Assembly: GCA_021324775.1 (NCBI GenBank)
Contig: JAJPIM010000003.1
Location: 1-64,000 of the forward strand
Length of the DNA stretch: 64,000 nt
Direction of reading: 5' to 3'
Source of the DNA: Gemmatimonadota bacterium
GTDB lineage: Bacteria > Gemmatimonadota > Gemmatimonadetes > Gemmatimonadales > Gemmatimonadaceae
The notes beneath the pieces are model-generated. The model was given only the letters and a program-made list of their open reading frames with translations, was not told where the DNA came from and did no database searches. Each line of letters opens with the position of its first letter. Positions within the stretch are counted from its first letter, which is position 1. The position numbers and the translations under genes were made by a program. Positions 13,394 through 25,859 of this stretch are shown one piece after another.

Positions 13394-13406
<13 letters not shown>

Positions 13407-14776
13407 CCGAATCGGAGCTTGTCCGGGTCGGTCGGTGGCGGCGTCGGGTAGTCGCCCGAGAAGCACGCGTCGCAGAAGCCGTGCGGTCCGCCTGGCACGG
13501 ACTCCAGCATGCCGTCGAGCGAGAGGTATCCGAGCGAATCCACACCAAGATTGGCCGCGATCTCATCGACGGTCAGATTCGCGGCGATCAGCTCTTCGCG
13601 GTTGGGCGTGTCGATGCCGTAGTAGCATGGGCCCGTGATGGGGGCCGAGCTCACACGCATGTGCACCTCCCGCGCGCCGGCCGCGCGGACCATCGTGACG
13701 AGCCCCCGGGTCGTCGTGCCGCGCACGATCGAGTCATCCACCATCACCACTTTCTTGCCGTCGAGCAGATCACGGACCGCGTTGTACTTGACCTTTACCT
13801 TGGCGTCGCGGCCGGCTTGCGTCGGCTGGATGAACGTGCGGCCGATGTAGTGATTGCGGATGAGGGCAAACTCGAACGGGACACCGGATTCATCGGCGTA
13901 GCCAAGCGCCGCAGAGTTGGACGAATCCGGCACGCTGAATACGAGCTCCGCTCCCGGTGCGGGACATTCGCGCGCGAGCCGCCGGCCGAGTGCCCGGCGG
14001 GCCGCCTCGACCGATCCGCCGAACACGATGCTGTCGGGTCTCGAGAAGTACACGTGCTCGAACACACAGCGGTGGAGCGGCTGGTGGGGTAGGGGAAAGG
14101 TGGAGTGCACGCCGTTGGGACCAATCGACACGATCTCGCCCGGTGCAACCTCCCGGTCATAGTGCGCGCCCATGATGTCCAGTGCGCAGGTCTCCGAAGC
14201 GATCACGGTGCTGCCGTCGAGCGTGCCGAGCACGAGCGGCCGCCAGCCCCGCGGATCACGCACCGCCAGCATGGTGTCCCCGATCACGACGAGTACGCAG
14301 TACGCACCCTCGACGCCACGCAGTGCATCGGCGAGCTTGGCCGATGGCGGCTCCGACGCCGACATGGCGAGCCGGTGGACGAGCACCTCGGAATCCATCG
14401 TGGAACTGAAAATCGAACCCCGGTCCTCCAGCTCGATCCGAAGTTCGGTCGCGTTGGTGATGTTGCCGTTGTGCGCGAGCGCGATGTGGCCGCCGCGAAA
14501 CCGGGCGAGTGCCGGCTGGGCGTTCTCGATGGTGGTAGACCCGGTCGTGCTGTAGCGCGTGTGGCCGATCGCCACCGCGCCATCCAGCGCCCCCACTTCA
14601 TCGTGGTCGAGTCCGTCCGAGACGAGTCCCAGCGCCCGGACGCTGCGAGCCTGGCCCTCATCGTCTACAACGACGATGCCTGCCGATTCCTGCCCGCGAT
14701 GCTGCAGCGAATAGAGTCCCAAACGCGTGAGTTCCGCGGCTTGGGGATGTCCGCGGACGCCGACGATGCCGCACAT
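13394..14776 (-). CDS. purF: amidophosphoribosyltransferase
   Basis: PurF makes phosphoribosylamine from PRPP and glutamine, the first committed step of purine synthesis. The N-terminal nucleophile Cys2 (MCGIVGVRGH) heads the glutaminase domain, and the PRPP loop VMVDDSIVRGTTTRG is in the C-terminal domain. Cysteines in CVFEHVYF, CYYGIDTP and CDACFSGDYP sit where the Bacillus-type enzyme carries its 4Fe-4S cluster, so an oxygen-sensitive cluster is likely. No long propeptide is visible upstream of the ATG used; the Bacillus enzyme has an 11-residue one. It lies 35 bases downstream of purL. Confidence 0.96.
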
Positions 14777-14811
14777 GTGCGTTAGATGAGTCGAAGGGAG
14801 ATGTCGTGCGC

Positions 14812-17142
14812 CTACACGAGAGATCCAGCGGCCGTTGGCTCTTCAGCCGCTTGTACGACGGCCGCCGGTCCCATCGCCGCCGGAATGGCGCCATGATACG
14901 CCGCCGCCAGCCGCGCCAGCGAGACTGCGATCCGCGTGCCGCCGATCGCGATCCGCAGCTCCCCGGCGGCCGGCCGTACGGTGCCGATCTGTCTGGCGGG
15001 CACACCGCGCTCGCCGGCCATCGCCAGCACGACCGGTGCGTCGGTGGTCGAGACGACGATCCGCCCCTGACCCTCGCCGAAGAGCAGAGCCCGCAGCGGC
15101 AAGCTGCTCCAGCCCGATAGATCCAGATCTGCACCGACCAGACGCTCGGCGTTGCCGATACAGCATTCCGCGACCGCGACCGCCAGGCCCCCGTCGCTCA
15201 CGTCGTGCGCCGACCGGACCGCGCCCGCGCGGATGGCCGCGAGCAGCGCGTCCGTCAGCGCACGCTCAGCAGCCAGATCACAATGCGGTGGTGCGCCGGC
15301 CACGACGCCGTGAATCCAGGCCAGGTACTCGCTGCCCCCCAACTCATCGGTTGGCTCGCCGAGCAGCACGATCGCCGCCTCGGCATCGTCGCGAAACCCC
15401 GATCGGGTCACGTGGTTGAACGCATCGATGAGACCGACCATGCCGACGACGGGCGTCGGATAGATCGCGCCAGCGGGACTCTCGTTGTACAGCGAGACGT
15501 TGCCACCGGTGACGGGGGTGCCCAGCACGCGGCACGCTTCTCCCATCCCGCCGATCGCTTCTCGCAACTGATAGTAGACGGCGGGCCGCGTCGGGTTGCC
15601 GAAGTTGAGGCAATTGGTGATCGCCATTGGGCGCGCGCCCACGCATGCGACATTGCGCGCCGCCTCGGCCACCGCGATCCGGCCACCCACCCGCGGATCG
15701 AGGTACGTGTAGCGGCCGTTGCCGTCCGTCTTGAGCCCAAGCGCGCGCGACGTTCCGCGGATTCGCACAACGGCCGCATCCCCCACTCCCGGCCACACCA
15801 CGGTGTTGGAGCGCACTGAGGAGTCGTACTGCCCGGTTACCCAGGCCTTGCTCGCGATCGTGGGTGACGCCAGCAGGGTCTCCAGGGTCCACGCCGGGTC
15901 GCGCTCTTCCGGCCGGGGCGCGACGGCGTGCACATCCGTCAGCCGTGCGGCCCGCACGGCCGGGTCCTCCGCGGCGTCCGGCGTGTAGAACGGGCAATCG
16001 GTCACGAGTTGCGATCCGGGGAACTCCGCGACGACACGATCGCCTTCCGTCACCCGGTACACCGGTTCCGCGATCACTTCGCCGATAACGGCGGCGGCGA
16101 GGTCCCATTTCGCCAGGATGGCCCGCACCGCATCCTCGCGGCCCCGGCGCGCGACCACCAGCATGCGCTCCTGCGATTCGCTGAGGAGGATCTCGTACGG
16201 CGTCATGCCGGGCTCACGCGCCGGCACTTTGGATACATCGATCGTGACGCCCACGTCGCCGCGCGCGGCCATCTCCGCGGACGACGACGTCAATCCTGCG
16301 GCACCCATGTCCTGGATCGCGACGATGTGGCCGCTCCGAATCAGCTCGAGACTCGCTTCGAGCAGCAGCTTCTCGGTGAAGGGGTCGCCGACCTGTACGC
16401 GCGGCCGCTTCGCGTCGGTGGCCGTCGACAGATCCTCCGAGGCGAACGAGGCCCCGTGAATGCCGTCGCGGCCGGTACGCGCACCGACGGCGATGATCGG
16501 ATTGCCGACGCCTTGGGCGACCGCGCGAATCAGCTCGTCTTCCCTGAGGATGCCCACGCACATCGCGTTGACGAGCGGATTGCCTTCGTACGCCGGGTCG
16601 AAGACCACCTCGCCGGCGACCGTCGGGACACCGACGCAATTGCCGTAGTCACCGATCCCGCGAACCACTCCGGCGAAGAGGTATCGGACGCGTGGCGTGG
16701 AGAGCGAACCGAATCGCAGCGAGTTGAGCATCGCAATGGGACGGGCACCCATCGTGAACACATCCCGGAGGATTCCACCCACGCCGGTCGCGGCACCCTG
16801 GTACGGCTCCACCGCGGACGGGTGGTTGTGCGATTCGATCTTGAACGCGACCGCCATCCCGTCGCCGACGGCGATGACGCCCGCATTTTCACCCGGACCC
16901 TGGAGCACATACGGCGCGGACGTGGGCAGCGTCTTGAGCAGCGGCCGCGAATGCTTGTATGAGCAGTGTTCACTCCACAGGGCACTGACGATCCCCAGCT
17001 CCGTGAACGTGGGATCGCGGCCGAGCATGGCGACCACCCGCGCATACTCGGCAGCCGTCAGGCCATGCTCGGCGATGAGCGCCGCGGAGATCGCCGGATC
17101 GCCGGGCCGTGGCTGCGGTGTGCGGGGGGTCAGTGTGCTCAC
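14812..17142 (-). CDS. purL: phosphoribosylformylglycinamidine synthase subunit PurL
   Basis: This is the small-type PurL (776 residues) that works with separate PurQ and PurS to turn FGAR into FGAM. Visible motifs include [28 protein letters not shown], the metal-binding [12 protein letters not shown], and the second half-repeat with [17 protein letters not shown] and [13 protein letters not shown]. The size separates it from the 1,300-residue single-chain enzyme of Gammaproteobacteria. The GTG start overlaps the stop of the BamE-like gene (GTGA), so the two are coupled even though their functions are unrelated. Confidence 0.97.
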
Positions 17143-17693
17143 TCGTGCGGCGCTGGCGCTGAGGGTACCGAATCGTGCTTCGCTCCGCTGGGCATCAGGC
17201 GTATCGAGTCGGCGTGGTTGGGGACGACACGGACGTATGACGGCGGGCGAGCCGGCGGCCGGGGGCCCATCAGCACGATACCCCCGCGGTGTGCGCTGTC
17301 GTCGGGCGTGCTGGCGCGGATCGGTGCGGGCGCGAAGTGCGACGGTGGGGATGGTTCCAGCGGAAGCGGCGACGAGCTGTGACCCGTGTACGTCCGCGTG
17401 CCGGAGCGGAAGACGGCATCCGTGACGACGCCGCGTTCCAGCACTACGAGATCATCCATTCCGCACTTCTGTCCGCACTCGTTGTCGTACATCAGATACG
17501 TGAACGAGCCCGAGTGGCTCTCCTCGCTGGGATCGCCCAAGCGCTCGACCACCTGATCCTTTGTCATGCCGGGATCGATCGTCACCGGCTTGGCCTGCGC
17601 ACCCGCTATGTGCGGGATCGCCAGCAGGAGAGCGGCCGCGATCGCGCCAAGGCACTGTCTGACGTTCACGGGACTGGACAAGGGCGCCTCCAT
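17139..17693 (-). CDS. secreted BamE/SmpA-like protein inside the pur operon
   Basis: A 184-residue protein with an N-terminal signal sequence (hydrophobic core [16 protein letters not shown], likely cleavage near residue 33). A domain of about 50 residues follows ([19 protein letters not shown], then SFTYLMYDN) that resembles the BamE/SmpA/OmlA fold, used in outer-membrane protein assembly and in small periplasmic proteins. Two cysteines (CGQKC) follow. The rest is Pro/Ser-rich and looks disordered. No lipobox is evident. The frame is open upstream, but the ATG at 17693, two bases after the purQ stop, gives the signal sequence. The function is unknown; the BamE label is a fold-level guess. 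Confidence 0.65.
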
Positions 17694-17694
17694 G

Positions 17695-18387
17695 TCAGGC
17701 CGCCACGCGAGCGACCAGGGACTCGAACATCGGCAACCCGTCGGGCGCTCCGAGGAGTGCATCAGCGGCCCGCTCGGGATGCGGCATCAGGCCGAAGACG
17801 TTGCCGGCGGCATTGATGATCCCCGCGATGTTGTGCATTGACCCGTTGGGATTGCCCTCGGGTGCCGGGTCTCCGGCCGCGTCGACGTACCGCATCACTA
17901 CCCTGCCTTCGCCCTCGAGTTCTTCGATCACCTGCTGATCGGCGACGAACCGGCCCTCCCCGTGCGCGATCGGCAGCCGGAGCACCTGTCCCGGCGCGTA
18001 CGCGTTGGTGAAAGCGGTCCCGGTGGATTCGACTCGCACCCGAACCGATCGGCCGAGGAACTTGAGACCCGCATTGCGGACGAGCGCCCCCGGGAGCAGG
18101 CCGGCCTCGCACGCGATCTGAAATCCGTTGCAGATCGCCAGCACCCGCCCGCCGCCATCGGCGAACGCCCGAACCTCGCGCATGATGGGGCTGAAGCGCG
18201 CGATAGCGCCCGCCCGGAGATAGTCGCCGTACGCGAAACCGCCGGGCAGGATCAGGACGTCCGCGCCGCCCAGGTCATGTCCCTTGTGCCACAACATGAC
18301 CGCCTCTTCACCAATGCCGTCCACGACGGTCTGATAGGCGTCGATGTCGCTGTTGGACCCGGGGAAGGTGACGATGCCGAAGCGCAT
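17695..18387 (-). CDS. purQ: phosphoribosylformylglycinamidine synthase subunit PurQ
   Basis: PurQ is the glutaminase subunit supplying ammonia to PurL. It is a class I glutamine amidotransferase of 230 residues with the triad Cys86 (AICNGFQ), His203 and Glu205 (MPHPERA). The N-terminal FPGSNSDID and ILPGGFAYGDYLRAGAIA are family signatures. It starts 27 bases after purS, and the BamE-like gene intrudes between it and purL. Confidence 0.97.
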   Translation of the reverse strand: MRFGIVTFPGSNSDIDAYQTVVDGIGEEAVMLWHKGHDLGGADVLILPGGFAYGDYLRAGAIARFSPIMREVRAFADGGGRVLAICNGFQIACEAGLLPGALVRNAGLKFLGRSVRVRVESTGTAFTNAYAPGQVLRLPIAHGEGRFVADQQVIEELEGEGRVVMRYVDAAGDPAPEGNPNGSMHNIAGIINAAGNVFGLMPHPERAADALLGAPDGLPMFESLVARVAA

Positions 18388-18414
18388 GGCGGTGAGCTCG
18401 GGAATGGCGATGGG

Positions 18415-18672
18415 TCAGGGGCGGCCAATGGATGCGATCTCGAAGTCCTCGATCACCGGATTAGCCAGGAGGCGCTCGCACATCGCGCGGACCGCGTGGC
18501 CCGCGGCTTCTGGGGTCTCGGCATCCGCGTCCACCACGACGTGCCGGCCGACGCGCACGTCGCGCACCTGCGCGAAGCCGAGCGAATGCAGCGCATCGGC
18601 CACCGCATGGCCCTGTGGGTCGAGGATACCGGTGCGCGGAACGATGTGCACGGACACACGGAATCGGCTCAT
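18415..18672 (-). CDS. purS: phosphoribosylformylglycinamidine synthase subunit PurS
   Basis: PurS is the small structural subunit that bridges PurQ and PurL and stabilises the ammonia channel. The 85-residue length, the start MSRFRVSVHIVPRTGILDPQG and the block LGFAQVRDVRVGRHVVVD are typical. The end NPVIEDFEIASI also fits. It follows pssA by 87 bases, the largest gap inside this operon apart from the truA/transaldolase-like gap of similar size. Confidence 0.95.
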   Translation of the reverse strand: MSRFRVSVHIVPRTGILDPQGHAVADALHSLGFAQVRDVRVGRHVVVDADAETPEAAGHAVRAMCERLLANPVIEDFEIASIGRP

Positions 18673-18759
18673 GAGTTCTTTCCCTTCCCGGTCTGCCGGA
18701 CCCTGCGATCGCCAGGTGGTTCCGGCCGGGCGTGCCCAGCGGCCTCTCGCAACACCGCG

Positions 18760-19716
18760 TCAGCCGTCGCGAATCCCCTCGCCATCGCCCGGATTGTCAG
18801 CCGGCCGGTTGTCGGCCTCCGGTGATGGGACGAGCCGCACCCAGCGTCCGGCGTGGCGACGGCGCCGGCCGACCACCACATCGCGCCCTCGTCGCGTCGA
18901 CGGTCCATCGTCGTCGGCGCGGTCGTCGTCGAGTGCGGCACCCGTCGGAATCCGGTCCACGAGGCCGAGGGCCACGGCCCTCGTGAGGCCGTAGAGGACG
19001 TATGCCATTCCCGCAGGGAAGAAAAACTCTCGGCCATAGATAAATATACCGACTATCGAGCCGACCACGACGACGAGGCCGGCGAGTCCGCTCCAGGTGC
19101 GAACGCCGACCTTGGGAAAGGCCGGATACGGCACGTTTGTGATCATCAGAATCGCGAGACCGCCCATCAACACCTTGACCATGTCGGGCCAGGGCAGATC
19201 CGCGATTCGCGTCTGGTTGTAGAACGACGTCTGGCTGAACCAGTAGTAGGTCGCCAGAGTTCCGCCCGCTGCGGGGCTCGGAAGCCCCTGGAAATGCCGT
19301 TTGGGAGTGCCGCCCTGCATCACGTTGAAGCGCGCAAGGCGGATCACCGCGCAGGCCGTGAACAGGAACACGAGCAGCCACCAGGCGCCGCCTTCGCGAT
19401 CGAGCACGGAGTAGTAGATGATCATTGCGGGGGCCAGCCCGAACGAGATCGCATCGACCAGCGAGTCGAGCTCCACGCCGAAGCGGGTGCCGGTGCCCGT
19501 CGCCCGCGCGATCCGGCCATCGAACGCGTCGCACACACCGCCCAGAACGATGAAAAGAACCGCTTTCGCGAAGTCGGCGTGCGACGCCGAGACGATCGCG
19601 AAGATGCCGAAAAACAGATTGCCGAGCGTGAAACCGTTCGGTAGCGCCGGCGCGGCCCGGCGCACGTCGGACCGGCGGAGCCGCCGCGCCACTACGCGCT
19701 TGACCGGGTTTACCAT
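18760..19716 (-). CDS. pssA: CDP-diacylglycerol-serine O-phosphatidyltransferase
   Basis: PssA makes phosphatidylserine from CDP-diacylglycerol and serine in the inner membrane. The complete CDP-alcohol phosphotransferase motif is readable: Asp63, Asp66-Gly67, Ala70-Arg71, Gly80, Asp84, Asp88. The membrane segments, the block NGFTLGNLFFG and ACAVIRLARFNV fit the Bacillus-type PssA family. A charged tail of roughly 60 residues (Asp/Arg-rich) beyond the last membrane span makes it longer than usual (318 residues). It is directly downstream of psd with a 19-base gap, giving consecutive enzymes of phosphatidylethanolamine synthesis. Confidence 0.94.
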   Translation of the reverse strand: MVNPVKRVVARRLRRSDVRRAAPALPNGFTLGNLFFGIFAIVSASHADFAKAVLFIVLGGVCDAFDGRIARATGTGTRFGVELDSLVDAISFGLAPAMIIYYSVLDREGGAWWLLVFLFTACAVIRLARFNVMQGGTPKRHFQGLPSPAAGGTLATYYWFSQTSFYNQTRIADLPWPDMVKVLMGGLAILMITNVPYPAFPKVGVRTWSGLAGLVVVVGSIVGIFIYGREFFFPAGMAYVLYGLTRAVALGLVDRIPTGAALDDDRADDDGPSTRRGRDVVVGRRRRHAGRWVRLVPSPEADNRPADNPGDGEGIRDG

Positions 19717-19735
19717 CGGCGCGCCACGGGGTCGA

Positions 19736-20389
19736 TCAGGGCGCCCACGCGCCCAGGACGGTCACGCCCGCCGTCGACCGCTGTCCCACCGCGACGCGGA
19801 CCGTCGCGCTCATCGGAAGGAACACGTCCACACGTGACCCGAATCGGATGATGCCCATGCGCTCTCCCTGTACCGCCGTGTCACCTTCCCGGCTGTAGGT
19901 GACGATCCGCCGCGCGATGAGTCCCGCAATCTGCCGCACCAGGACCCGGCGGTCGCGGGTCATGACGATGCCCACGGACCGCTGTTCGTTCTCGAGACTG
20001 GATTTCTCGGCGGCCGCGTTCAGAAACTTACCCGGATTATAGTGAACGTACCGGACGGTGCCGCTCACCGGGTACCGGTTGACGTGCACGTCGAAGACGT
20101 TCATGAAAATCGACACGCGGCGCGCGGGCCCCCGGAAGAACACCGGTTCCGTGACGTCGGTGATCATGACGACGCGGCCGTCGGCCGGGGCAATGACGAG
20201 GCCGTCGCCCCGGTCGCCCAGGCGCTCGGGGTCGCGGAAGAAATAGGCGACCCACAGCGTGAGCAGCGTGAGCACAAAGGCCAGGAGCCATATGGGCCAC
20301 GACCGCCTGGCCAGCGCTGTCGCCAATGCCGCCGCGGCGAGGACGGCCGCGATCGCGATGAAGACGTATCCTTCGCGCGCGAAGCTCAC
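19736..20389 (-). CDS. psd: phosphatidylserine decarboxylase, short (archaeal-type) proenzyme
   Basis: Psd converts phosphatidylserine to phosphatidylethanolamine using a pyruvoyl group made by self-cleavage. The 217-residue protein has two close N-terminal membrane spans (about residues 10-50), then [24 protein letters not shown] and the cleavage site Gly184-Ser185 in [12 protein letters not shown]. The FGSRVDV form is that of the short Psd group rather than the LGST form of E. coli. The frame is open further upstream, but the GTG at 20389 overlaps the purC stop (GTGA) and gives a normal N-terminus. Confidence 0.92.
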
Positions 20390-21336
20390 GCGGGGCCCGG
20401 ACCGCCAGCTGCCGCCGTGAGCGGGGCGCCGGTCAGCCGCCGGAATGCGTCGAGATACCGCGCGCTCGTCGCGGCCACGACCTCGGGCGGCAGCGGCGGC
20501 GCGGGCGCGTCGCCGTTCCACCGGCCGGCCCGCCGTTCGGCGTCGAGATAGTCGCGGAGGGGCTGCTTGTCGAAACTCTGTTGGGTGCGTCCTGGCATGT
20601 AGCCGGCCGCCGGCCAGAACCGCGAGCTGTCGGGCGTCAGCACCTCATCGATCAGCAGCACCCGGCCTCCGGCGTGCCCAAACTCCAGTTTCGTGTCGGC
20701 GATCAGGATGCCGCGTTCGGCGGCCAGCGCGCGCCCGTGCTCGTACACGAGGCGAGTCTTCTCCTCCAGCTCCGCGGCCACGGATGCGCCGACGATGGCG
20801 GCCATGCGGGCGGTGTCGATGTTCTCATCGTGCCCGTGCTCGGCCTTGGTCGCGGGCGTGAAGCGGGCCGGCTCCAGCCGGTCGCTCTCGCGCAATCCCG
20901 CCGCGAGCCGCTCGCCGCCGACCGGCAGCCCCGCCAGATATTCCTTCCACGCCGACCCGGATATGTAGCCCCGGATGACACATTCGACCGGATAGACCTC
21001 GGTGCGGCGCACGAGCATCGCGCGACCAGTGAGAAGGGCCCGATGGGGCGCGAGCGCGGGGACCGCCCTGACAATGGAGTCCGGATCGGCCGTGATCAGG
21101 TGGTGCGCGATGCGGATGCCAAGATGTCCCAACCACCATGCCGTCAACTGCGTGAGCACCGCACCCTTGTGCGGCACGGCCTCGCGCATCACCACGTCGA
21201 AGGCGCTCACGCGATCGGTCGCGACGAGAAGCAGCCGGCCGGCATCGACTTCGTACACGTCGCGTACCTTGCCTTCGCGGAGGCGTGGCAACGGCAGTCC
21301 GGTCGTGCGCACCGGGCCGGCAGTGAGCGGCGTCAT
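20386..21336 (-). CDS. purC: phosphoribosylaminoimidazole-succinocarboxamide synthase
   Basis: PurC (SAICAR synthase) couples CAIR and aspartate with ATP. At 316 residues it is the longer form seen in yeast and many environmental bacteria. Signatures include [52 protein letters not shown] and the late [16 protein letters not shown]. Its ATG overlaps the purB stop (ATGA) and its end overlaps psd (GTGA), so it sits in a tightly coupled chain linking purine and phospholipid genes. Confidence 0.97.
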
Positions 21337-22805
21337 ACCCGCACGCCTGAGACTGTCGCGTGTCCCGGCTCGGCGTCGTCCCGCGCAAGCACCGGCGCGA
21401 CCACCGACGCGAGAAAATCGTCCACCTGGTCCGCGGCCCGTCCGATGTACCGGCTGGCGTCGACGGCCTGCCGAAGGTCGCCGGCTGTCGCGGGGAACGC
21501 GGGGTCCGCGGCGAGCCGCTCCAGCAAGTCGTTGTGGCGCGCACCGTCCTTCACCGCACGCGCTGCCGCCATGCTGTGCCGCCGGATCGTTTCGTGCGCG
21601 GCCTGCCGATCGCCACCGGCCCGGACCGCACGCACGATCAACTCCTCGGTCGCCATGAACGGCAGCTCGTCCTCGACCCGCTGGCGAATCCGGGCGGGAT
21701 GCACCTCCAGCCCGGCGGCGATGTTGGCCATGAGAACGAGAATCGCGTCGGCCGCGAGGAAGCTTTCTGGGAGCACGAGGCGCCGGTTCGCGCTGTCATC
21801 GAGCGTCCGCTCGAAATACTGCACGCTGTGGGTCTGGTTGGCGTTGGCTTCGAGAGACTGCGCGAATCGCGCGAGTCCGGCGATTCGTTCGGAGCGCATG
21901 GGATTTCGTTTGTACGCCATGGCGGACGACCCGACCTGCTCGGTCTCGAACGGCTCCTCGATCTCGCCGAATGCCTGCAGCATCCGGATGTCCCCGCTGA
22001 ATTTGGCCGCGCTGGCCGTGATCCCGGCCACGACCGCGAGGACGCGAGCGTCGAGCTTCCGGGAGTATGTCTGCCCCGTCACCGCCAGCGCGCTGCCGAA
22101 TCCGAACGCGTGCGTCACCCGCCGATCGAGGTCGCGCACCTTGTCGTGGTCGCCGTGAAACAGCTCGAGGTAGCTGCCTTGCGTGCCGGTCGTTCCCTTG
22201 ATCCCGCGAAAGGGCAGTGTCGCCACGCAGTGATCCAGGTCCGCGAGATCGAGGATCAGGTCCTGGATCCACAGCGTCGCGCGCTTTCCCACCGTCGTGA
22301 GCTGCGCCGGTTGCAAGTGCGTGTAGCCGAGCGCCGGCTCGGCGCGCCACTGCCGCGCAAACGCCGCCAGCGGGCGCAGCACGTGCATGATCTGGCGACG
22401 CAGGATCGCCAGTCCCGAACGGAGCTGGATCAGATCGGCGTTGTCGGTGATGTCGGCGCTCGTCGCGCCCAGATGAATCACCCGCCGCGCGGCGGGCGCG
22501 GCATCCGCGAACGCGTGCACGTGCGCCATGACGTCATGGCGGAACCGCCGCTCGTAGCCTGCCACGGCGTGGAAATCGATGTCGTCGAGATGGGCCCGCA
22601 TGTCATCGACGGCCGCCTGCGGGATGTCGGCGCCAAGAGCACGCTCCGCTTCCGCGAGCGCGAGCCAGATGCGCCGCCACAACCCGTGCCGCGTCTGCGG
22701 CGACCACAGGGCCGTCATCTCCGGTGACGCGTAGCGTTCGGCCAGCGGAGAGGTGTAGCGCTCGTGACGCTCCGCCGGTGCCGCGCCGCTCGGAGGCGCG
22801 CTCAT
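21333..22805 (-). CDS. purB: adenylosuccinate lyase
   Basis: PurB releases fumarate from SAICAR and from adenylosuccinate, acting twice in purine synthesis. The 490-residue protein has the fumarase/aspartase superfamily signature [15 protein letters not shown], the histidine loop [13 protein letters not shown] and the [11 protein letters not shown] segment. The frame is open for another 300 codons upstream inside htrA; the ATG at 22805 overlaps the htrA stop (ATGA) and gives the family N-terminus. The length resembles the eukaryote/Bacteroidota-like long form rather than the 430-residue Bacillus form. Confidence 0.96.
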
Positions 22806-24322
22806 TGTATGCTGAAGTCCGTCGTGTAGACCTGGCCGTTGTGCTCGAAATACATGCGGATGGGTCCGCGCCCGCCATAGTAATTTAGCGCCTCGGCGGC
22901 TCGATCCGCGGATTCCACCGGGGTGTGGTTGACCTGCACGATCACATCCCCTGCCCGGATGCCGAGTTCGTCGGAAACGCGGGGCGTCACGCTGTAGATC
23001 ACCGCTCCGTGGTTGCTGCGGATGTTGCGCTCGGACCGAATGGCCGGCGTGAGTGTCACCAGTTGCAGCTCCTTGAGGACTTCGACCTTTGGCGCATTGA
23101 CCTCGGGAAGGTCGGCGACGGTGACGTTGGTGGTGATGTCCTGTCCATGGCGCCGGATGGTGAGCCGCACGGTGTCCCCGACGCGGAGATCGAGCAGCTC
23201 CGCCTCCCAGTCGTACGGGTTGCGCAGATCCCGGCCTCGCGAGCGCACGATCACATCGCCAGGCTCGATACCGGCGCGCGCCGCCGGCGAGCCCGGCGCC
23301 ACCGAACGCACGGTCACGCCGCCCGTCAGCATCGTTCGTGAGCTCGCCGCATCGGGGAGCCGCAATTGCACGCCGATCCACGGACGCCGCACGGCGCCAT
23401 GCGCGAGGAGATCCTCCGCGACGCGCTTCACCCGATTGATGGGAATCGCGAACCCCAGACCGACCGAGCCTCCGGTCGGCGTGTAGATCGAGCTGTTCAC
23501 CCCGATGACTTCGCCGAGGGCATTGACCAGAGGGCCGCCCGAGTTGCCCGGATTGATCGAAGCGTCGGTCTGGATCATGTCCACGTACACTCCGCCGCCC
23601 TCGGCCTGGCCAACGAGATTGCGCCCGGTGCCACTGATCACGCCAGCCGTGACGCTCGGCTCCGTGTTGCCGAGGAAGAATCCATAGGGGTTGCCGATGG
23701 CGATGGCCCATTCGCCGATGATGAGATCGTCGGACACCCCAAGGGGCGCCACAGGCAGGCGCTGTGCGTCGATCCGAAGGACCGCGAGATCGTTCGTCTC
23801 ATCGACCCCGACGATCTTGGCCGGGTAAGTCGTGCCGTCGCGCAGGGCCACTTTCACCGCGGTGGCACCGGCCACCACGTGCGCGTTGGTGACGATGACT
23901 CCGTCCGCACGGATGATGAAGCCCGACCCCAATCCCTGCGTCGTGCGATCCGGCCGGCCCCCGAAGAACGCATCGAAGGGGTTGGTGACGGGCGCGGTGG
24001 CTTCCGTCTGCACGGTGACGACCGCCGGCGAGACGCGGGCGACTGCTTCCGTGATCGGCGTCCGCCGGGCGGCCAGCGCTGCACGGCCGGACAGCGGTGT
24101 CGATGCGGCCGTGTCCCCTCGGGCCGGGGCGGTGTGTGCGGCCACCGTCTGCGCGTCCGCATCGGCCGAGATCGCCCCACCCGGTCCGCAGGCGATCGTC
24201 AGGGTCAGCGAAGCGAGAGCGACCACGGCAGCCGCGACGAGTGGGTAGCTACGGCACATTGCGCTTCGGGGAACCGGCGCCCGGCGCGCCGGGCCGGCAC
24301 GCGTGCGTTCGTCGATCGGCAT
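22802..24322 (-). CDS. HtrA/DegP-family serine protease, probable lipoprotein
   Basis: A periplasmic trypsin-like protease and chaperone of envelope quality control. The triad is complete: His148 (TNAHVV), Asp178 (TNDLAV) and Ser261 (GNSGGPL). Two PDZ domains follow (about 320-400 and 410-506). The N-terminus has a hydrophobic stretch ending in the lipobox-like LTIAC (Cys45), so the protein is probably lipid-anchored. ATG at 24259 is an attractive alternative start that places this signal at the very N-terminus. The stop overlaps purB (ATGA), and the gene begins six bases after the upstream transaldolase-like gene. Confidence 0.92.
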   Translation of the reverse strand: MPIDERTRAGPARRAPVPRSAMCRSYPLVAAAVVALASLTLTIACGPGGAISADADAQTVAAHTAPARGDTAASTPLSGRAALAARRTPITEAVARVSPAVVTVQTEATAPVTNPFDAFFGGRPDRTTQGLGSGFIIRADGVIVTNAHVVAGATAVKVALRDGTTYPAKIVGVDETNDLAVLRIDAQRLPVAPLGVSDDLIIGEWAIAIGNPYGFFLGNTEPSVTAGVISGTGRNLVGQAEGGGVYVDMIQTDASINPGNSGGPLVNALGEVIGVNSSIYTPTGGSVGLGFAIPINRVKRVAEDLLAHGAVRRPWIGVQLRLPDAASSRTMLTGGVTVRSVAPGSPAARAGIEPGDVIVRSRGRDLRNPYDWEAELLDLRVGDTVRLTIRRHGQDITTNVTVADLPEVNAPKVEVLKELQLVTLTPAIRSERNIRSNHGAVIYSVTPRVSDELGIRAGDVIVQVNHTPVESADRAAEALNYYGGRGPIRMYFEHNGQVYTTDFSIQ

Positions 24323-24327
24323 CCTGG

Positions 24328-24993
24328 TTAGACCGTGGCGCGCGGCCGATGGTGCACACTCAGGTCGCGCAGGAAATGATCCAGACCGCGGTCGGTCAAC
24401 GGGTGGAGCAGCAGGGCCTTCAACACCTCAGGTGCCACCGCCAACACATCGGCGCCGGCCTCCGCGCATCGGGCGAACTGCACCGCATGTTGGGGGAGCG
24501 CCGCGAGGACATCGCAATCCATGCCATGCGCCGCGAAGAGCGCGGACACGGAACGCACGACGTCGGCGCCGTCCTGCCCGAACGCGTCGAGTTGGTCGAG
24601 CGCCACGCTCACCATGAAGGCGCCGGCTTTTGCCGCAAGAACCGCCTGCGCCGCTGTGAAGACGAGCGTGGCCACCACCCGCACGCCGTCCGCCCGGAGC
24701 CGGCGCATCGCGCCGACCGCCTCTTCCAGCAGTGGAATCTGGACCAGAATCTGGTCCGAGATCCTGGCCAGCTCCCGTGCGTCGCGGTAGATGTCGGCCG
24801 CGGTGACCGCACCGACCGTCGCGCAGACCGGACCCGTGGTAGCCCGGCATATGTCGGCCAGGAGCGCGCGCTCCTCGCCGTCTCCGGCGACGTCGCGCAG
24901 CGATCCGGGAGTGGTGAGCACGCCCTCGGCGAGTCCACCGTCGATCGCCCATTGCACGTCCGCCACCGACGCCGTCGAGACGAAAATCTTCAT
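24328..24993 (-). CDS. transaldolase/FSA-family protein lacking catalytic residues
   Basis: This 221-residue protein aligns without gaps at its N-terminus to fructose-6-phosphate aldolase/short transaldolases, and LAAKAGAFMVS and the C-terminal helices also match. From memory of E. coli FsaA, however, the active-site positions are all changed: Asp6 is Ser6, Asn28 is Thr28, Gln59 is Thr59 and the Schiff-base Lys85 is Gln85 (LVQIPLLEE instead of VVKVPVT). Arg134 and Ser166 equivalents also look lost. It therefore cannot work by the normal lysine mechanism. It may be a regulator, a binder of sugar phosphates or a new activity. It lies between truA and htrA, on the same strand. I read the Gln codon (CAG) directly on the complementary strand. 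Confidence 0.8.
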   Translation of the reverse strand: MKIFVSTASVADVQWAIDGGLAEGVLTTPGSLRDVAGDGEERALLADICRATTGPVCATVGAVTAADIYRDARELARISDQILVQIPLLEEAVGAMRRLRADGVRVVATLVFTAAQAVLAAKAGAFMVSVALDQLDAFGQDGADVVRSVSALFAAHGMDCDVLAALPQHAVQFARCAEAGADVLAVAPEVLKALLLHPLTDRGLDHFLRDLSVHHRPRATV

Positions 24994-25002
24994 CGGTTCC
25001 GC

Positions 25003-25072
25003 CTGTGCTGGTGCTGGAGCTGGTCGAGCGAGTGTTGGTGCTGGTGTCGATGCTTGTGCCGATGCTGGAGCC
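25003..25072. repeat. low-complexity CTGGTG/GCTGGA-like tract
   Basis: A 70-base imperfect repeat of GTGCTGGTGCTGGAG-like units fills most of the 82-base gap between truA and the transaldolase-like gene. On the coding strand it reads as CCAGCACC-type units. If the truA stop were read through, it would encode a Ser/Thr-rich tail in the truA frame. No function is evident; slippage-prone DNA is the simplest description. Confidence 0.7.
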
Positions 25073-25075
25073 GGA

Positions 25076-25852
25076 TCACGTCATCTCCCGGTACAGCCCG
25101 CGGGGGTATTCTACATGCTCCAGGCACAGTCCGTGGGCCGGCGCGGGCGCCGGCGTCCCGGCGTTGTCCTGCGCCTCGAGCAGTTCCATGACCGCCGAGC
25201 GCCCGCGGGCCCCCGAGGCCGCGGCGACCATCGCCCCGACGACGAAACGCACCATATGGTGCAGGAATCGGTTGGCCTCGATTTCGAAGGTCAGGCCGCC
25301 CGGCCGCTCTCCCCAATGCGCGCTGTGCACGATACACCGGTGATCGTCAGTCTCCGGCGCTGTCCCGCGGACCGCATACGCGCGAAAGCAGTGGTCTCCG
25401 AGAATGGCATCCGCGGAGAGATCCAATGCTTCGCGGTCCAGGGGACGCTGAATGGCCCATTCCCACCGTGCCCGGAACGGCGACCGCGCTTCGTCGTCGG
25501 TTCCCACGCGATAAGTGTACCGGCGTGAGAGCGCGCTGTACCGGGCATGGAACGACGGATCCATCTCATGCGCCGCGACGACCCAGACGTCATCAGGTAG
25601 CAGCGCGTTCAGCGCCCGGCGCAGCTTGTCCGCCGTCCACCCGGCTGGAACCGTCGCGCCCACCGCCTGCCCGCGGGCGTGCACCCCGGCGTCCGTGCGG
25701 CCGGCGCCTGTCGCGCGGGTCTCCGTGTTACACAGGCGGCTCAGCGTCTCCTCGATGACCCCTTGGACGGTCCGGACATTCGGCTGGCGCTGCCATCCCG
25801 CAAAATGGCCCCCATCGTAGTGCAGGACGAGCTGGACCGTGCGTTCCGACAT
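25076..25852 (-). CDS. truA: tRNA pseudouridine(38-40) synthase
   Basis: TruA converts uridines 38-40 of the tRNA anticodon arm to pseudouridine. Catalytic Asp54 is in GAGRTDAGVHARGQAV. Other family blocks are HYDGGHFAGWQRQP, ARYSALSRRYTYRV and the late NRFLHHMVRFVVG. The 258-residue length is normal. ATG at 25852 is preferred; a GTG directly before it would add one residue. A good promoter lies only a few bases upstream, so the message may be leaderless. It appears to head the long leftward operon. Confidence 0.95.
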   Translation of the reverse strand: MSERTVQLVLHYDGGHFAGWQRQPNVRTVQGVIEETLSRLCNTETRATGAGRTDAGVHARGQAVGATVPAGWTADKLRRALNALLPDDVWVVAAHEMDPSFHARYSALSRRYTYRVGTDDEARSPFRARWEWAIQRPLDREALDLSADAILGDHCFRAYAVRGTAPETDDHRCIVHSAHWGERPGGLTFEIEANRFLHHMVRFVVGAMVAAASGARGRSAVMELLEAQDNAGTPAPAPAHGLCLEHVEYPRGLYREMT

Positions 25853-25859
25853 CACGGTG

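Follow-up and report, generated by a model that had tools for sequence, protein, structure and literature searches.

What does a transaldolase do once its active site is gone? Transaldolase is a textbook, nearly universal enzyme. In the window (the whole stretch of 64,000 nucleotides that we analyzed, from a member of the Gemmatimonadaceae), a 221-amino-acid open reading frame at 24328-24993 (- strand) encodes a relative of the short transaldolases and of fructose-6-phosphate aldolase (FSA), and profile matches, alignments, and a predicted structure all describe it as a member of this family whose active-site residues are lost. It is nevertheless a real reading frame. We propose, with a probability of roughly 0.55, that the protein is a transaldolase pseudoenzyme that acts through its body, as a scaffold or by binding a partner.

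Loss of the active site

The protein matches TAL_FSA from Pfam at 87.8 bits (the cut-off is 27). It also matches NCBIfam's TIGR00875 (fsa_talC_mipB) from end to end, but the score of 148.7 bits is under the cut-off of 245.95. An intact ortholog (L034) scores 293.4 bits against the same model. The closest solved structures are short transaldolases from Thermotoga (1vpx), Bacillus (3r8r), and Thermoplasma, and there are no N-terminal gaps relative to these proteins, as was originally predicted.

When the protein is aligned to the solved short transaldolases, the catalytic Asp6, Asn28, the acid-base residue Glu/Gln59, and the Schiff-base Lys85 are replaced by Ser (codon at 24976-24978), Thr (24910-24912), Thr (24817-24819), and Gln (CAG at 24739-24741, read 24741-24739), respectively; all of these codons are on the - strand. 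The phosphate-binding residues Arg134 and Ser166 are replaced by Gln (24592-24594, - strand) and Leu (24496-24498, - strand), and Arg168 is replaced by Gln. The alignments bear out the substitutions in the original prediction, including the suspected loss of Arg134 and Ser166. Its statement that every catalytic residue had been replaced is right in substance but slightly too strong, as Thr27, Thr109, and Ser129 are retained.

Class I aldolases and transaldolases form a Schiff base on a conserved lysine (PMC3962226). Because the lysine, the acid-base residue, and the phosphate-binding residues are all gone, catalysis of the family's reaction is very unlikely. Judging from its sequence, the window's protein almost certainly lacks transaldolase and aldolase activity.

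Modeling the structure had been proposed as a check, and the AlphaFold2 model (built with 49 relatives; mean pLDDT 94.8) has a complete barrel. Its top match in Foldseek is the transaldolase of B. subtilis (3r8r, TM 0.92/0.96). With VIA-align, the model has Z scores of about 32 over 212-219 residues against short transaldolases, 29 against FsaA, and 22 against TalB-type enzymes. The protein is thus predicted to have the TIM-barrel fold of TAL_FSA at full length.

The lysine is absent at this locus across the Gemmatimonadaceae

Of 250 genomes of the order that we searched, 154 have a match. The original prediction had named two reasons to doubt it, Lys85-bearing homologs in the same clade or a sequencing error at the CAG codon. 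All 61 of the Gemmatimonadaceae copies that we examined at this locus lack the Schiff-base lysine, so a sequencing error or a one-off defect is excluded. Gln85 itself, which it was suggested might be conserved in the clade, is not a signature: position 85 is Gln, Ala, Glu, Met, or Arg in the degenerate copies, and only the absence of lysine is constant. In an alignment-based scan of named genomes, degenerate copies come from the Gemmatimonadaceae and related records (such as Roseisolibacter sp. H3M3-2), and the Lys-bearing relatives, which are from many phyla, all retain D-T-N-E-K-N-T-S-F-G-R-S-R.

A few copies lie elsewhere. One more degenerate copy (L073, on contig G143:C117) is near-identical to L075 and is on a 3.5-kb contig in a genome from another family; this is probably assembly contamination. 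Two Gemmatimonadaceae genomes have an extra Lys-bearing short transaldolase or FSA outside the conserved locus (L068 and L078). These extra copies lack the truA/htrA context and cluster with ordinary enzymes in the gene tree.

An active ancestor at the same locus

In the window, the upstream neighbor of the gene is truA (25076-25855; profile match and synteny) and the downstream neighbor is a gene for an htrA/Do-type serine protease (22802-24322; open reading frame, profile, and synteny), which starts 5 nt past the stop of the pseudoenzyme. These are followed by purB (21333-22805, which is the end of a larger open reading frame at 21333-23711; the start was set from homology) and purC (20386-21336), both identified by open reading frame and synteny. 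All of these genes are on the - strand. In the slot of the degenerate copies, one strand carries trpD and a GAF-domain gene and the other carries truA-TAL-htrA-purB-purC; intact copies have truA-TAL-(htrA)-purB in common with it. Other families of the order have copies with intact catalytic residues in this slot, and so do two more families of the class, whose copies are syntenic. Because families and orders elsewhere in the class have intact copies in the same slot, the ancestor was active and the loss is derived.

The original prediction also suggested a tie to truA and htrA. We consider this unsupported because the neighborhood is ancestral: in other families and orders, the active enzyme has the same neighbors, and several Gemmatimonadaceae have cleanly deleted the gene while keeping both truA and htrA.

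We noticed three other features of the window. The downstream genes at 13394-21336 (- strand) include purC, phosphatidylserine decarboxylase, CDP-alcohol phosphatidyltransferase, AIR-synthase (purL-like), and amidotransferase genes, so that a phospholipid gene pair sits among purine genes. The gap between truA and the pseudoenzyme is 82 nt in the window, as compared to about 11 nt in many relatives, and it contains short imperfect repeats of 6 and 12 bp (25005-25073). At the window's edge (1-62), there is a tandem array with 4.8 copies of a 13-bp unit, GTAACACCACCGT.

A long transaldolase is present elsewhere in nearly every Gemmatimonadaceae genome, according to a census with Pfam. The window's own genome encodes one of 351 amino acids (C32:137703-138755; 312.9 bits for TIGR00876, with a cut-off of 233.75), and it retains the lysine of VMIKVP. 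The long enzyme is found in about 98 of the 101 genomes with a degenerate copy versus 6 of the 44 genomes with an intact copy (Fisher p = 5e-25, which is not a strict probability as the genomes are related; also, one of the 101, G231, is counted on a weak match, which could itself be the long enzyme). Because the long transaldolase accompanies the degenerate copies, loss of the short enzyme's activity would be tolerable, and the long transaldolase probably supplies the actual activity.

In the gene tree, a branch with support of 100/97 separates the Lys-less copies from the Lys-bearing ones, and this split retains support of 100/94 if 28 pocket columns are removed. A clade of intermediates is placed next to the active enzymes in the gene tree but is nested inside the family in a tree of truA, htrA, and purB. 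An AU test rejects the nesting if the pocket columns are included (p = 0.0026); once they are removed, it does not (p = 0.176). Since the conflict between the two trees weakens without the pocket columns, there may have been a single loss of the lysine or several, and the remaining pocket positions may have eroded more than once. Six copies (L023, L032, L038, L039, L060, and L088) have Glu or Met instead of the lysine and retain the full phosphate-binding cradle; these are natural intermediates of active-site loss.

The gene is under purifying selection

Between close pairs of degenerate copies, dN/dS (by the Nei-Gojobori method) ranges from 0.038 to 0.27 and is mostly 0.04-0.17, which resembles the values for truA, htrA, and purB from the same pairs. 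For the window's copy and its nearest relative, dN/dS is 0.092, and for the same pair it is 0.103 for truA and 0.103 for htrA. Some pairs have an almost saturated dS, so the comparison to the neighboring genes carries more weight than the absolute values. There are no in-frame stops among the matches listed in genomes of the order. (The match in G068 is split, but there are unknown bases at its locus.) Since the frames are open and dN/dS is like that of adjacent genes, the gene is not decaying, and we rejected the idea that it is a pseudogene with a disrupted frame or relaxed selection. The expectation that an intact, operon-embedded gene which has lost its whole active site would have a conserved role thus holds across the clade, under strong purifying selection, and this role is very probably not aldolase chemistry.

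Pseudoenzymes are inactive homologs that are kept as scaffolds or regulators. The window's gene fits this description in that it is homologous to an enzyme whose catalytic residues it has lost and in that its frame is intact and under purifying selection.

Which part of the protein is constrained? We measured pocket diversity as the mean pairwise difference over 12 pocket positions. Among active orthologs, it is 0.000, versus 0.240 over all sites. In the window's clade, it is 0.50, versus 0.425 for all sites, and residues 197-208 are at 0.134. These residues (HPLTDRGLDHFL in the window, 24370-24405, - strand) rank with the best-conserved stretches in the pseudoenzyme clade; the motif is HPLTDRGxDxFL, and HPLTDRG is nearly fixed in the window's clade. 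We also asked if the basic C-terminal tail could be a gain of nucleic-acid binding, but the tail has equal charge in active orthologs, so we rejected this.

Because it is the body and the C-terminal helix that remain constrained, rather than the pocket, we favor a role as a scaffold or in binding for this copy. Relatives of this type are decamers with a swapped C-terminal helix, and one of them among the Foldseek matches is called decameric in its database title. Given these relatives and the conservation of the motif, the window's protein probably still assembles as a decamer.

The history of the gene is as follows. The ancestor had an active-type short transaldolase between truA and htrA, and nearly all genomes with a degenerate short enzyme now have a long (TIGR00876-type) transaldolase. 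Within the Gemmatimonadaceae, the Schiff-base lysine has disappeared from the locus, most of the substrate pocket has been replaced, and strong purifying selection keeps the frame, the predicted fold, and the HPLTDRG motif of the C-terminal helix. Several lineages have deleted the gene cleanly. The selected feature would be the assembled barrel, as a cytosolic scaffold or protein-binding partner, and not a catalyst or a sensor of sugar phosphates. For this more specific claim, that selection acts on the assembled and probably still decameric barrel in such a role, we see the odds as even. The products of the purine operon and the long transaldolase are candidate partners, on location and history only; metabolic partners are attractive because the gene's place in the purine operon (with purB, purC, and the AIR-synthase and amidotransferase genes) is ancestral.

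Some observations do not fit a scaffold easily. The C-terminal motif is altered to YPFTDQ in one subclade. In 11 genomes for which we read the locus, the gene is absent and truA is followed directly by htrA; nine of these belong to the Gemmatimonadaceae, and the remaining two to other families of the order. Because genomes of the family without the gene exist, its role is dispensable within the Gemmatimonadaceae. Third, in the subclade with Ala85, pocket diversity is just 0.208, versus 0.390 overall (P = 0.0099), with small residues at these positions. Because the pocket is more conserved than average there, it may have been reused in this subclade.

Alternative explanations

The barrel might have been exapted in the Gemmatimonadaceae for a new conserved function, with a new ligand or chemistry in some subclades and a scaffold in others, and with living intermediates from which the order of loss can be read (the lysine first and the phosphate cradle later). 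We regard this broader account as possible but rather unlikely.

Ligand sensing, which was the original suggestion, would mean that a Lys-less barrel binds a sugar phosphate noncovalently and signals through its oligomer. The copies that would fit best are L023/L038, L032/L060/L088, and L039, in which Asp6, Thr109, Ser129, Phe131, Arg134, Ser166, and Arg168 are invariant, despite 0.37 overall divergence and no lysine. Sensing is plausible in that clade. However, Arg134, Ser166, and Arg168 are lost from the window's protein and from most of the family. Because the phosphate-binding Arg and Ser are gone and the pocket in the window's clade varies as much as an average site does, sensing is unlikely for the window's copy, and as an explanation of the gene we think it improbable.

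We consider it equally improbable that the barrel catalyzes another reaction with new residues. Asp133, Cys160, Asp161, Pro167, and Arg202 are new and near-fixed across the degenerate copies, and the pocket of the Ala85 subclade has been re-fixed as Ala6/Thr28/Ser59/Ala85/Gly166. But no new conserved set of acids, bases, or nucleophiles lines the pocket in the window's clade. Cys160 and Asp161 are at the start of strand 6 (by DSSP), which TIM-barrel geometry would place off the active-site end, and Asp133 seems to fit a helix cap.

Slow decay, in which the gene is a dispensable remnant that serves as no more than a translational spacer between truA and htrA, would account for its clean absence from several genomes and for its redundancy with the long transaldolase. 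It is largely refuted by the low dN/dS and the open frames throughout, which are described above, and by the genomes in which truA and htrA abut without it, so we consider it very unlikely. Finally, aldolase or transaldolase activity by a Lys-free mechanism is very improbable: the fold and a few Thr and Ser of the pocket remain, but the family's mechanism uses the Schiff-base lysine (PMC3962226), the acid-base and phosphate-binding residues have disappeared as well, and the alignments show no pattern of a metal site.

Relation to known transaldolases and pseudoenzymes

In a search of the literature that covered mostly freely accessible papers, we found no conserved inactive branch of transaldolases and no transaldolase pseudoenzyme. 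The branch that we describe thus seems to be new within a known enzyme family. Automatic annotation as "transaldolase" or "fructose-6-phosphate aldolase" is probably incorrect across an entire bacterial family. A single gene in a single slot goes from the active type to a Lys-less form with the phosphate cradle, to a rewritten pocket, and to clean deletion. Because all of these stages are traceable in one slot, one can directly test how a pseudoenzyme arises after a distant homolog takes over.

A review describes five subfamilies of transaldolases and describes the lysine as conserved (PMC3962226). The short (TalC/FSA-type) transaldolases of B. subtilis (3r8r), T. maritima (1vpx), and T. acidophilum (3s0c) are about 31-35% identical to the window's protein, have the same full-length fold, and share an HPLTD-type motif in the C-terminal helix; related families have an active-type ortholog at this locus. 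Unlike them, the window's protein lacks the Schiff-base Lys, the Asp, the Asn, the Glu, and the phosphate-binding Arg and Ser, and it scores under the TIGR00875 cut-off. Fructose-6-phosphate aldolase from E. coli (FsaA, 1l6w) shares the fold (Z = 29) and is 27% identical, but the catalytic Lys85 of FsaA, together with its network, is replaced in the window's protein. The long transaldolase of the window's genome (TIGR00876/PRK03343) belongs to the same superfamily (TAL_FSA) but differs in its length of 351 amino acids, in having the lysine, and in scoring above its own family's cut-off. The closest parallel to the pseudoenzyme that we propose is with pseudoenzymes in general, in which the catalytic residues are likewise lost, the fold and selection are kept, and an active member of the family is present.
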